Shown: positions 1,363-6,897 of the stretch, piece by piece | Layout: the number at the start of each line of letters is the position of its first letter | Numbering within the stretch: the stretch's first letter is position 1 | Notes under the pieces: model-generated | What the model was told of the DNA's origin: nothing | Database searches by the model: none | The model's input: only the letters and a program-made list of their open reading frames with translations | Translations under genes and position numbers: made by a program | Origin: Thermococci archaeon | Lineage (GTDB): Archaea > Hadarchaeota > B88-G9 | Reading direction: 5' to 3' | Assembly (NCBI GenBank): GCA_003660555.1 | Contig: QMUK01000052.1 | Coordinates: 1-8,744, forward strand | Length of the DNA stretch: 8,744 nt

Positions 1363-2461
1363 TCCAATAGCAGGAATAGGAGGCCCCTCCGGACTAAAAG
1401 GAAGTGATAGGTTAGAGAAAGTTATGAAAGCGATCAGTTTGGGCTATAGGAAGGTATCTCCAAAGAGAACAGAACTTTTCCTTAAGGAACTTCTTTCTAT
1501 TTTAGATCCAAACCAAATGAAAGAAATCGAGTTTCTCACATATTCTGGAGAAATGGGAGAGATAGAACTCCGGAAATTCGGCATTGATCCAGTGGTTTTT
1601 GGAGAAGAGAAGGAAGTAACTACTAGGGAGGACACCATGGAGGCAGTTCGTCACTTCATCGAAAACGGAGTTGAGATAATACTATTCTGTGGAGGAGATG
1701 GAACAGCTAGGGACGTATTTCAATCCCTTTCTGGGAAAGAAACTCCAGTAATAGGCATTCCTGGAGGAGTAAAGATGTATAGTGGAGTATTCGCTAGTAA
1801 CCCGAGAGACGCTGCTGAATTACTCTATTATTTCCTACTGGGAGAGACGACATTGGTAGATGAGGAGGTAATTGATGTAGATGAGGAAAATCTGGAGGAA
1901 AATCCTAATTTCAGAGTTATAGGATATTTAAAGGTGCCAAAGTACAGGAAAGAAACACTTCTTCAGGGAAAGAAGGAACCAACTCCGATGGAGGAAGATT
2001 CAATAAAAGAAGAAATAGCTGAGAGGATAATAGAGGAGATGTCTCCAGATACTGTTTACGTAATTGGACCTGGGAGTACTACCCTAAAGCTCAAGGAGAA
2101 AATTGGAGAATACACCAAATTCGGAGTAGACGTCTATCTAAATGGAAAATGTATATCAAAGGATGTAGATGAACTTAAGTTACTCTCTCTGATTGAGGAA
2201 AACAAGGACAAAGAGATAAAGCTAATATTGACCGTAGTGGGTGGACAGAACTTCCTGCTCGGAAGAGGAAATCAACAGATAAGCCCTAGGGTCTTGGATA
2301 AAATAGGAGTAGATAATATGATCGTAATAGCCACACCGTCTAAGCTCAGAAAGGGGTACGTAAAGGTAGATCAAGAATACAAGGACTTCTTTGATGGAAA
2401 GAAATACATAAGGGTAGTTTCCTCGTACTTCGAGGAAGTTCTCATTAAGATAGATCCTTAA
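1337..2461 (+). CDS. ATP-NAD/AcoX kinase family protein (predicted NAD kinase)
   Basis: Predicted to phosphorylate NAD to NADP in the cytoplasm. It belongs to the long archaeal/AcoX branch (COG3199 type), which differs from classical NadK. The 374-residue protein opens with VGLVVNPIAGIGGPSGLKGSD, the usual N-terminal signature. It carries the GGDGT nucleotide-binding motif at residues 119-123, the IPGGVKMYSGVFA block near 140-153, and GGQNFLLGRGNQQISP at 302-317, all typical of this family. The start is a TTG with GGAGG 7 bases upstream, and it overlaps gcvPB by 26 bases, so the two are probably co-translated. The 3' end overlaps the convergent ThiI-like gene by 17 bases. Related AcoX proteins sit in acetoin dehydrogenase operons, so a recurring link with lipoyl-dependent enzyme complexes is possible (inference). 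The phosphate donor (ATP or polyphosphate) cannot be read from sequence. Confidence 0.9.
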   Translation: MRKVGLVVNPIAGIGGPSGLKGSDRLEKVMKAISLGYRKVSPKRTELFLKELLSILDPNQMKEIEFLTYSGEMGEIELRKFGIDPVVFGEEKEVTTREDTMEAVRHFIENGVEIILFCGGDGTARDVFQSLSGKETPVIGIPGGVKMYSGVFASNPRDAAELLYYFLLGETTLVDEEVIDVDEENLEENPNFRVIGYLKVPKYRKETLLQGKKEPTPMEEDSIKEEIAERIIEEMSPDTVYVIGPGSTTLKLKEKIGEYTKFGVDVYLNGKCISKDVDELKLLSLIEENKDKEIKLILTVVGGQNFLLGRGNQQISPRVLDKIGVDNMIVIATPSKLRKGYVKVDQEYKDFFDGKKYIRVVSSYFEEVLIKIDP

Positions 2462-3566
2462 AAGAGACTTCTTCGGATGAGGAAAGCAATACCTCGATTT
2501 TTTCAGTTAAATTAACTCTCTCCTCTAGCCTCTCTAACTCTCTCGGACTCAATTTCCTTGGAGTAGCTCTGGATCTACAAAATGACAGCTCCTTGAGAGT
2601 GTTGAGATTCATTGTTACAATGGACTTCATTATCCTAGATATTTCCTCTTCCTCCATAGCTAGCAAGGGCCTTATTATCGGGAGGGAAATCCCCCTGGAG
2701 ATAATCCTAATTGAGTCTAATTTCACTCCTTTCTCTCCGAGAATCTCTCCTACTACTATCCCTTCTGCCCCCTCCCTTCTCGCCAATCTCTCTGACACTA
2801 AATACATTATTCTCCTGCATATATGACAAACTCTCCTTCCAGCTATCTGACTGATTTCATCCAATGTATCGCTATACGGTATGAATATAGCTTTTCTGTC
2901 TATTTCAGCACCTATACTCCAAGAGAATATCTCTCTAATAACTCTTGTTGCTACTTGCCTTCCATGGAAGTCGAAAAACACTGGGATGACTGGGTGCCCT
3001 TTCCTCATTACGCTCCACGATGATAGAAAGGAGTACTCACTATCGTTAAGTATTGAAACAAGGGGACTCTCCGAACCCAAAGCTCTCCCACCAGGCCCTT
3101 TTTCCCTTTCAGTACAGAGGAAGTAAAGACCGCCAGCTCTCTCCAAATACATTTTTGCTCCATTCTTAGGAGAAATGACTAATTCAGTTAGTTCTACAAT
3201 TTTTCTTTTTATCTCGGGGACATCTCTCTTAACATCTCGGCTTAAAGGCTTTAAATCAAAACTTGCCTCTTTGCTACTATTAATTTCCTCTAAGATTTTC
3301 TCTGTAATTTCCTCCTTGCTGTTAGCTGAGAGAGCCTTTGTGAAATAACTAATTCCAAAGTGTTTCCTTACCGTTTTAGCTGCCTCATTTATACTCTCTT
3401 CTCCAGTTAGTACGAAGATCTTCCCCTCCTTAGATATTACGTCCTCTCTGTTTACTCCCGTAGCTTCAGTTATCTGCTTCTTGAGCATTTCCCTATTCCT
3501 AGAAGCTCTCCTAGGCCCCCTAATCGGAGTCGTCCAAATGACTAGGGAGTCCCATTTCATCGTCAT
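2445..3566 (-). CDS. ThiI-like protein (NFLD-THUMP-AANH) with degenerate PP-loop
   Basis: Divergent relative of ThiI, the tRNA 4-thiouridine synthase; probably not an active ATP-dependent synthase itself. Numbering is from ATG 3566 (373 residues). Residues 1-50 match the NFLD region, about 55-155 the THUMP RNA-binding domain, and the hinge KGPGG is at 156-160. The Rossmann-like AANH domain follows (WSVMRKGHPVIPVFF aligns with ThiI). The SGGxDS PP-loop is replaced by NDSEYS at 174-179, losing both glycines and the aspartate. The ThiI GDxLGQVxSQT segment reads GEILGEKGVKL at 273-283. By contrast CHIC (C247, C250) followed by RRIMY, and C330, are kept at positions resembling archaeal ThiI iron-sulfur ligands. 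A GTG at 3584 is also possible, but ATG 3566 has GAAGGT 6 bases upstream. It lies just downstream of larA on the same strand. The family is secure; the function is unknown. Confidence 0.82.
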   Translation of the reverse strand: MTMKWDSLVIWTTPIRGPRRASRNREMLKKQITEATGVNREDVISKEGKIFVLTGEESINEAAKTVRKHFGISYFTKALSANSKEEITEKILEEINSSKEASFDLKPLSRDVKRDVPEIKRKIVELTELVISPKNGAKMYLERAGGLYFLCTEREKGPGGRALGSESPLVSILNDSEYSFLSSWSVMRKGHPVIPVFFDFHGRQVATRVIREIFSWSIGAEIDRKAIFIPYSDTLDEISQIAGRRVCHICRRIMYLVSERLARREGAEGIVVGEILGEKGVKLDSIRIISRGISLPIIRPLLAMEEEEISRIMKSIVTMNLNTLKELSFCRSRATPRKLSPRELERLEERVNLTEKIEVLLSSSEEVSFKDLS

Positions 3567-3602
3567 ATCGATACCTTCGCTCACACACTCTTATTCTGTC
3601 GT

Positions 3603-4835
3603 CTATACTATTGGCAAAGTATCTCCTCCATAGGGGAGAACGGAAAATTCTCCATCTATTTCCTTTACGGCATGTTCTGGAGACATTTTCTCACATCTGA
3701 ACATGTCTTCTACAATCTCTTTCGGGAGATCGGTAACCATTATGAGTCTATAGTTTTCCACAGTTCTGAACCAATAATAGGCCTTGTGGCCACCTATTAC
3801 GAACTTCTCCTTGACCCTCTCCTCTGCGTCTTTCAAATCGTTGCATTCCCTCATCCATTCCTCAAAGACCTTGTTTCCAACACCTTCTTTGCATTGAGCA
3901 AATAGTATTATTGTACCTCCACGTTTAACCATCTTCTCTGCATTAAATACTGCCTTTTGGGCTTGGTAAACGTTTATGTCTCTTGGAAATCCTCCAGCAC
4001 TTACTAGTACAGTGTCCACTTTCTCCTTCGCTTTGACTTTGTACATTTGATCCACGACCTTTGCCCCTCTTCTCAGCACCTCCTTGAAGTCACCAGAAAA
4101 TACTGAGACTATCTCTTTTTTCTCATTTTTGACTATATTAACAGTGAATGTAATTTCTGCCATCTCAGCGGCTTCTGTCATGTCCTCGTGGACGGGGTTC
4201 CCATCCAGTACACCTATATCGGATCTCGGATCTAGTAACATGGAGTGGTTCCTCGTTATGGTTTCCCTTCCAGACACACCAGGTAAAACACTCTTTCTGC
4301 CACCGCTGTACCCAGCGAAGTAGTGCAGCTCTACCTCTCCAGTCAGTATTTTGTATTCGGACTCCATGAAGGTCTCATTAAGGTAAACAGGTGTATTAAA
4401 GCTTGTTTCTCCCAAGTAGACTAGCTCATCATCACAGTTATGATTTAGCACCTTGTATTTTCCTGCTATATCTCCGAGGATTTTGTTCATTTCCTCTCTG
4501 GTAACGGGTCGGTGAGTTCCCGTTGCTATGATTATCCTGATGTCATCTCTTTGAACTCCACACTCTTTCAGCACTCTTAGTATAGGAGGGAGCATCAAAT
4601 GGGTGGGAGTGGATCTAGTTATGTCGTTCACCACTATGGAAGTTTTCCCACTGCCATTGATCAACTCATCCAGAGGTGAAAACTCCGTAGGGACTGGGTT
4701 TCTTATCGATTTCTCTACTTCGGAAATCGGATTTTTAACTCCTTCTTTTTTCTTCGGCAAGAGAATCTCGGAGAACATTGACTCTGGCACTTCTAAAGTT
4801 AACTTGGATTTCCCATATGGTAATTCTATCTTCAA
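3603..4835 (-). CDS. larA: LarA-family nickel-pincer racemase/epimerase
   Basis: Cytoplasmic 2-hydroxyacid racemase or epimerase that uses the nickel-pincer nucleotide (NPN) cofactor. The founding member interconverts L- and D-lactate, but many homologues use other hydroxyacids, so the substrate is open. The 410-residue protein is of normal length. Visible motifs are NDITRSTPTH (D71, R74), ATGTHRPVT (H108), ELHYFAGYSGGRKSVLPG (H171, K181), NH (H197) and YQAQK (291-294). These correspond to the catalytic histidines, the cofactor-attaching lysine and the nickel-ligand histidine of L. plantarum LarA. I start at TTG 4833-4835 (MKIELPYGK, the usual LarA opening), because the upstream GTG at 4844 lies inside GAGGTGA, which is itself the ribosome site. 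The NPN synthesis genes larB, larC and larE are not in this window. The ThiI-like gene follows 36 bases downstream. Confidence 0.92.
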   Translation of the reverse strand: MKIELPYGKSKLTLEVPESMFSEILLPKKKEGVKNPISEVEKSIRNPVPTEFSPLDELINGSGKTSIVVNDITRSTPTHLMLPPILRVLKECGVQRDDIRIIIATGTHRPVTREEMNKILGDIAGKYKVLNHNCDDELVYLGETSFNTPVYLNETFMESEYKILTGEVELHYFAGYSGGRKSVLPGVSGRETITRNHSMLLDPRSDIGVLDGNPVHEDMTEAAEMAEITFTVNIVKNEKKEIVSVFSGDFKEVLRRGAKVVDQMYKVKAKEKVDTVLVSAGGFPRDINVYQAQKAVFNAEKMVKRGGTIILFAQCKEGVGNKVFEEWMRECNDLKDAEERVKEKFVIGGHKAYYWFRTVENYRLIMVTDLPKEIVEDMFRCEKMSPEHAVKEIDGEFSVLPYGGDTLPIV

Positions 4836-4840
4836 GGGGC

Positions 4841-4847
4841 TCACCTC
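4841..4847 (-). promoter_or_regulatory. Ribosome binding site GAGGTGA for larA
   Basis: On the minus strand GAGGTGA is a strong match to the complement of the 16S rRNA 3' end. It lies 5 bases before the TTG at 4835 and contains the GTG at 4844, which argues against that GTG as the start. Confidence 0.7.
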
Positions 4848-6314: not shown

Positions 6315-6334
6315 CCTAGTTATTACTCTTATGG

Positions 6335-6339
6335 GGAGG
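6335..6339 (+). promoter_or_regulatory. Ribosome binding site GGAGG for the coiled-coil gene
   Basis: GGAGG within a GGGGAGGGG run lies 9 bases before GTG 6349. It supports that GTG over the ATG at 6331, which would place the run inside the coding region. Confidence 0.5.
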
Positions 6340-6348
6340 GGATTAATA

Positions 6349-6897
6349 GTGGAGGGGGGAAGAGTAAACTTAGGAGTCTACGTCCTCATCTCAGCCATGG
6401 TATCTCTCCTAGTTTTCGGAGGGCTTGTGGCCCTGTCATACAAAGCATCAGCTGAGGAATATAGATCTCTATCTGAGAAAATAGAGTTAGAAAACGTGAG
6501 GCTACAATCTGAGAACTACCAACTAGTTCAGAGACTAGAGTTAACTCAAGACAAGCTACAAGAACTCCTAGACGAAATAGAAGATCTAAAAGAAGAGAAC
6601 AGAAAGTTAAGGGAGAAATTGGAGGAAGCAAACCTCAAGAACTCAGAGCTTAAGGAGAGTACTGAGGATTTAATGAAGCAAATAGACGAGTTAGAGTTCT
6701 CCATAAGGCAACTCCTGAGTGAGAATGAGAATCTAAAAGATGAAATAGAGCGAGTGAGGGAGGAGTTATCGTCTGAGAAGAGGTATCACTATGATTACAT
6801 AGTTAAATATAGATACGTAATTCCGTGCAATGTGTGCTGCGAAATCAGATATTACCGCTGTCCTGACTGGTGTCATTGCCATTGGGATGATCCATAG
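6349..6897 (+). CDS. Membrane-anchored coiled-coil protein with Cys/His-rich C-terminus
   Basis: I do not recognise this family. Starting at GTG 6349 it has 182 residues (an ATG at 6331 would add six). Residues about 8-29 are one hydrophobic span (LGVYVLISAMVSLLVFGGLVAL), either a membrane anchor or an uncleaved signal. Residues about 35-144 are Glu/Lys/Leu-rich with heptad-like leucines and read as one long coiled coil. The last 25 residues are different: aromatic residues, then a cysteine cluster at C160, C163, C164, C171, C175 and C177 with H176 and H178. This spacing suggests a small metal site or disulfide knot. The two arginines before the span suggest the N-terminus is inside and the coil outside, with weak support. 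It has its own promoter just after the thioredoxin system, and its last 53 bases overlap the convergent methyltransferase gene. Confidence 0.8.
   Translation: MEGGRVNLGVYVLISAMVSLLVFGGLVALSYKASAEEYRSLSEKIELENVRLQSENYQLVQRLELTQDKLQELLDEIEDLKEENRKLREKLEEANLKNSELKESTEDLMKQIDELEFSIRQLLSENENLKDEIERVREELSSEKRYHYDYIVKYRYVIPCNVCCEIRYYRCPDWCHCHWDDP

Follow-up and report, generated by a model that had tools for sequence, protein, structure and literature searches.

The question raised by this locus is what a full-length ThiI-like protein with an erased PP-loop does in a Hadarchaeota genome which also encodes an intact ThiI. The window (the whole stretch of DNA analysed, 8,744 nts) carries the gene on its minus strand at 2445-3566, with 373 aa from an ATG at 3566, from which residue numbers are counted throughout. 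A GTG at 3584 is an alternative start; an AAGGT-like ribosome site lies about 7 nt 5′ of the ATG and is better than the one for the GTG. The reading frame is intact, without stop or frameshift in 373 codons. A LarA-family gene (3603-4844, minus strand) is located directly upstream, with its stop codon about 36 nt 5′ of the ATG.

On this strand, the gene encodes successively an N-terminal ferredoxin-like domain (NFLD) and THUMP region (3087-3566, boundaries approximate), whose fold is retained, the GPGG hinge (KGPGG motif, about 3087-3098), the sequence NDSEYS in place of SGGxDS (3030-3047), CHICRRIMY (2802-2828) with C247 and C250 at two of the three Fe-S ligand positions, GEILGEKGVKL (2718-2750) in place of the second ATP motif (canonical GExLGQVASQTL), and C330 (2577-2579) at the third ligand position, the ligand positions being those of the alignment. 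A preliminary description of the locus had correctly quoted KGPGG, NDSEYS, CxxCRRxMY and the cysteine numbers, and had noted that the GDxLGQVxSQT segment is changed. A frameshift or misread start concealing a real SGGxDS was excluded, since the motif is restored in no frame.

Kinship with ThiI along the whole length, which that description had proposed, was borne out. The protein matches Pfam ThiI at E 1e-18 and NCBIfam TIGR00342 at E 2.5e-28, with 99.2 bits and thus below the cut-off of 264.5, and the AlphaFold2 model displays a complete NFLD-THUMP-PPase fold (pLDDT 89.3, pTM 0.88). The best solved matches of the model are Thermotoga maritima ThiI (4KR7; Z 33.6, rmsd 2.9 Å across 356 residues), Bacillus anthracis ThiI (2C5S; Z 31.9) and PH1313 of Pyrococcus horikoshii (1VBK; Z 24.4). 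The Pfam search gave neither a ThiI_fer nor a THUMP match: the NFLD/THUMP half is strongly diverged as well, a point missed in the preliminary description. Archaeal ThiI/TtuI, the tRNA U8 4-sulfurtransferase of the [Fe-S]-dependent subclass, thus shares with this protein the NFLD-THUMP-PPase fold, the GPGG hinge, CxxCRRxM, RPL and the third Cys position. The protein differs from it by the loss of the PP-loop and second ATP motif, by the loss of most conserved tRNA-binding residues and by its score below the TIGR00342 cut-off.

Does the altered loop affect the ATP site as a whole? In contrast to NDSEYS, G[IL]DS closes the PP-loop in each of 27 full-length ThiIs compared from other archaeal phyla (SGG/STG/SSG/SEG), and GEILGEKGVK departs from the second motif, G(E/D)xLGQxxSQT. 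We used the T. maritima ThiI complex (PMC4041423) as the source of the named contacts to ATP phosphates, adenosine and CCA, keeping its numbering and transferring positions by alignment. Among the phosphate contacts, S182N, G184S, I185E, D186Y, N288I, Q291E and Q295K are altered, whereas S187 and R264 are kept; the adenine/ribose contacts L181, M267, G286 and E287 are also kept. As judged from these aligned residues, the adenosine side appears partly retained and the triphosphate side appears replaced, at two positions by acidic residues. This agrees with the earlier proposal of a non-adenylating homologue.

Changes are more extensive in the part of ThiI which binds tRNA. Of the 30 conserved NFLD/THUMP columns of the alignment, the protein retains only 7, compared to 28 of 63 PPase columns. 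The THUMP/CCA contacts (T. maritima numbering) are altered at K104D, V105L, Y119P, N122K, S123R, G126V and A127E, and the helix is about five residues shorter. The net charge of the N-domain is +6 (canonical mean +4.5). The suggestion of an RNA-binding partner made in the preliminary description is therefore weakened, the canonical tRNA-binding residues being mostly gone; the protein may still be a remodelled RNA-binding partner.

The cysteines fared otherwise. C247, C250 and C330 all align with the Fe-S ligand cysteines of archaeal ThiI, so that the CxxC...C triad is retained, as had been noted before, at positions which would accommodate a putative Fe-S cluster. All three fall within the 28 kept PPase columns, which is not significant by chance expectation (p = 0.08).

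The genome, that of a deep-branching member of Hadarchaeota, is a MAG of 150 contigs, 91% complete with 0.61% contamination, and is the sole member of its family among the genomes compared. A second, intact thiI, for which the preliminary description had advised looking, is present: one full-length copy with STGIDS and CVLC on contig C12 (L082:6120-7277), the window gene being on another contig, C66. Two further PF02568 matches, of which one is LarE, represent different PP-loop families, and no stand-alone PP-loop ThiI was found in this 91% complete genome. In trees, the intact copy clusters with the ThiI of Thermococcaceae (support 100/99 to 100/100, 52% identity). Since it is Thermococcales-like, it was probably acquired by horizontal transfer into this Hadarchaeota lineage.

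This odd affinity of the intact copy, in a MAG of 150 contigs, could also mean that one of the two contigs is foreign, so that the two ThiIs do not reside in one cell. Tetranucleotide correlations of the two contigs, 0.615 and 0.616, are indeed at the low end for contigs of the genome. They are however comparable to the values of other short contigs (0.63-0.73) and exceed those of other Hadarchaeota (0.24-0.47) and Thermococcaceae (0.03-0.33). GC contents of C66 and C12 are 0.418 and 0.444 (genome 0.42-0.45), contamination is low, and both thiI genes have codon usage native to the genome. We therefore regard a binning artefact as highly improbable.

Other genes of these contigs and of the genome can be mentioned here. 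Each thiI contig encodes a membrane-anchored coiled-coil protein with a cysteine-rich tail (window 6331-6897 and L082:1797-2732); the pair shares a common layout only, without similarity by tblastn. A THUMP protein of about 285 aa on contig C28 (L269:1279-2133) is not a ThiI and is possibly a THUMP methyltransferase.

We then asked where the window protein comes from. A scan for its pattern over 84,980 species gave no orthologue, and neither did a search of 394 archaeal genomes, where only canonical-level matches occurred, the best at about 32% identity. The neighbours of the gene displayed no conserved synteny at other Hadarchaeota loci. The protein thus stands alone among the genomes searched, at the end of a very long branch (2.5-2.8 in trees), and its placement is unsure. 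A recent duplication of the resident C12 ThiI was rejected, as a clade of both gave an AU p of 7e-5. A clade of the window protein with the ThiIs of family-f2 Hadarchaeota was not rejected (p 0.16). A common origin with the dead ThiIs of family f2 alone was rejected (p 0.008, with a long-branch caveat). The simplest history may be that a native Hadarchaeota ThiI was displaced and then diverged into the window protein.

A displaced gene, redundant with the intact ThiI, could simply be drifting to loss without important function now. The very long branch, the lack of an orthologue in the searches and the loss of conserved residues from both halves would fit such a drift. However, simulated random substitution of Hadarchaeota thiI to 30-35% identity, in a simple scheme without indels, gave 13-14 expected stops under neutrality, compared to none in the 373 codons of the window gene, which also lack frameshifts, and the predicted fold is complete and confident. 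The absence of stops, together with codon usage at the genome mean, implies constraint on the gene during the greater part of its divergence. The searches gave no relative close enough for measuring present selection. Drift to loss is in our judgement unlikely, in agreement with the earlier opinion on simple decay.

Dead ThiIs are not restricted to this genome. In family f2 of the same phylum, 15 of 22 genomes encode a ThiI of full length whose PP-loop is erased (L164-L172, L174-L177 and G-handle loci), the loops reading SGSLNSS, SGNRNDV, SGNHNDV, SGSMND, EGKRADT, DGSGRDV and others. These proteins form one clade (100/99) nested inside the intact copies of G004 and G015, so that one loss suffices. 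In genus g5, dN/dS values of 0.13-0.39 in both halves indicate purifying selection. They keep 26-29 of 30 NFLD/THUMP columns and 23-42 of 63 PPase columns; the cluster cysteines are mostly lost, and the N-domain is more positive than the canonical mean of +4.5, at +8 to +19. In 11 of the 15 genomes with a dead copy, a stand-alone PP-loop ThiI was also found; it measures about 225 aa, and its SGGIDS and CxxC are perfect. Considering f2 genomes at least 83% complete and holding a full-length copy, it accompanied 10 of 10 dead and 2 of 5 intact copies (p 0.02, kinship ignored). In G008, G017 and G019 the stand-alone protein was present and a dead copy was not found.

The same arrangement was observed in distant lineages. 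In rumen Methanomethylophilaceae/Thermoplasmata, the gene of a dead NFLD-THUMP protein, with a PPase remnant and no CxxC, has a catalytic PP-loop gene of the stand-alone type directly after it, at a distance of a few bases (L208:3983-5510, L214:2414-4250, L219:2515-4054, L220:3968-5507). At L232:4145-5683 both parts lie in one 513-aa frame, either a fusion or an assembly effect; in its model the halves fold (pLDDT 81.9) while their mutual arrangement is not predicted (pTM 0.49). Dead ThiIs also occur at Nanoarchaeota, Woesearchaeota and Poseidoniales-type loci (L224-L229). Among the 12 genomes behind these and the Methanomethylophilaceae loci, a stand-alone PP-loop ThiI was seen in 11 and an intact full-length ThiI in none. 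The stand-alone protein matches the NCBIfam model PRK08349 (‘hypothetical’) with a score below the cut-off of that model. Co-occurrence, gene adjacency and the one fusion-like frame lead us to infer a two-subunit ThiI in which the dead protein would bind tRNA and the stand-alone protein would thiolate U8. Such a split agrees with the homodimeric state of ThiI, where the PPase of each subunit receives U8 from the NFLD/THUMP of its partner (PMC4041423). The literature searched gave no description of a split ThiI.

Further loci can be mentioned here. At L227:3983-5721 (Woesearchaeota), the dead ThiI gene overlaps a TtuA/TtcA-type PP-loop gene by a few bases, an arrangement which looks like the teaming of a THUMP protein with a different PP-loop subfamily; this genome also has a stand-alone ThiI. 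Long ThiI-like proteins, in frames of 600 and 500 aa with loops LSATLAS and LNDGMDS, were observed at L152 and L151 (G225 and G196, respectively), and both genomes hold a canonical ThiI as well.

Could the window protein then be a tRNA-presenting scaffold of the kind which we infer for Methanomethylophilaceae and for the other Hadarchaeota with dead ThiIs? It has the same fold and a dead PP-loop, its N-domain charge of +6 is near the canonical mean, and U8 is presented across subunits in the ThiI homodimer (PMC4041423). Nevertheless, it keeps 7 of the 30 conserved NFLD/THUMP columns where f2 dead proteins keep 26-29, its THUMP contacts are changed (K104D, Y119P, N122K, S123R and G126V among them), and its grouping with the dead proteins of f2 in one clade is rejected. 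It resembles these as a full-length ThiI with an erased PP-loop from the same phylum. In contrast, they have kept NFLD/THUMP, mostly lost the cysteines and carry other loops, and their loss was independent (p 0.008). The preliminary description had asked whether the loop and cysteines are conserved as a clade, and this was not supported: 394 archaeal genomes gave no orthologue, and the related dead ThiIs are another lineage. Since NFLD/THUMP residues are lost, no stand-alone partner was found in the 91% complete genome and an intact full-length ThiI is present, a scaffold role is quite unlikely. By the features tested, the window protein behaves as a pseudoenzyme, and it qualifies neither as a ThiI enzyme nor as the scaffold of a split ThiI.

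The upstream gene suggests another function, a new role tied to larA such as sulfur handling for the nickel-pincer cofactor. The two genes are on the same strand, about 36 nt apart and likely co-transcribed, LarE is encoded in the genome, and LarE structures with a [4Fe-4S] cluster resemble the PPase domain of the model (Z about 12). Yet the genome already has a LarE scoring far above the family cut-off, the LarE model TIGR00268 is not among the NCBIfam matches of the window protein, and the adjacency is known from one genome only. We consider this role very unlikely.

Our best explanation, held tentatively and at somewhat less than an even chance, is that the gene encodes a non-adenylating pseudoenzyme of the ThiI family which has been maintained, and which is probably the native ThiI of Hadarchaeota, diverged after an acquired Thermococcales-type ThiI took over U8 thiolation. 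The lineage would have acquired the Thermococcales-type enzyme, which would have taken over U8 thiolation and displaced the native ThiI; the latter would then have diverged, losing residues of the ATP triphosphate site and most canonical tRNA-binding residues and keeping the CxxC...C triad. The resulting protein may now work without ATP, pairing through its PPase domain or relaying sulfur. This explanation is supported by dead ThiIs elsewhere, which are under purifying selection beside catalytic partners.

The most likely role of this pseudoenzyme, although a doubtful one, would be that of a non-adenylating Fe-S-bearing accessory protein or subunit, by analogy with Ctu2/Ncs2, the dead partner of the U34 thiolase Ctu1/Ncs6 (PMC10067955). 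Like the window protein, Ctu2/Ncs2 is a non-catalytic paralogue of PP-loop fold beside a catalytic one. It belongs to a different PP-loop subfamily and has no cluster cysteines, whereas the window protein keeps them. This difference argues against the explanation (PMC10067955), as do the non-significant retention of the cysteines (p = 0.08), the missing orthologue, the unsure placement on a long branch, and the lack of a physical link to the resident ThiI, with the two genes on separate contigs. A fuller version, which we regard as unlikely, is that the protein is a silent Fe-S-bearing subunit teamed with the horizontally acquired ThiI. It would do beside the archaeal U8 thiolase what Ctu2 does beside Ctu1, and would represent one of several independent routes by which ThiI was divided in archaea between a catalytic and a dead protein.

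ThiI-fold pseudoenzymes have been known so far from one uncharacterised structure, PH1313 (1VBK), a ‘ThiI-like protein’ without known activity (PMC9957541). It too has the ThiI fold without key ThiI residues. Its PPase domain is shortened, whereas the window protein is full length; in a relative of 310 aa (L163) the CxxC region is absent, in contrast to the window protein, which keeps the cysteines. Thermococcaceae also hold other ThiI homologues. Taken together, our survey suggests that ThiI has been divided repeatedly in archaea, into a dead protein that binds tRNA and a distinct catalytic one of PP-loop type, at present annotated as ‘hypothetical’ (PRK08349). If true, a split ThiI would give a function to both proteins and explain how many archaea without full-length ThiI could make 4-thiouridine. 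The window protein represents a further type, in which the cluster cysteines are kept and the RNA-binding residues are not, and which can help to distinguish the contribution of the Fe-S site from the contribution of ATP.
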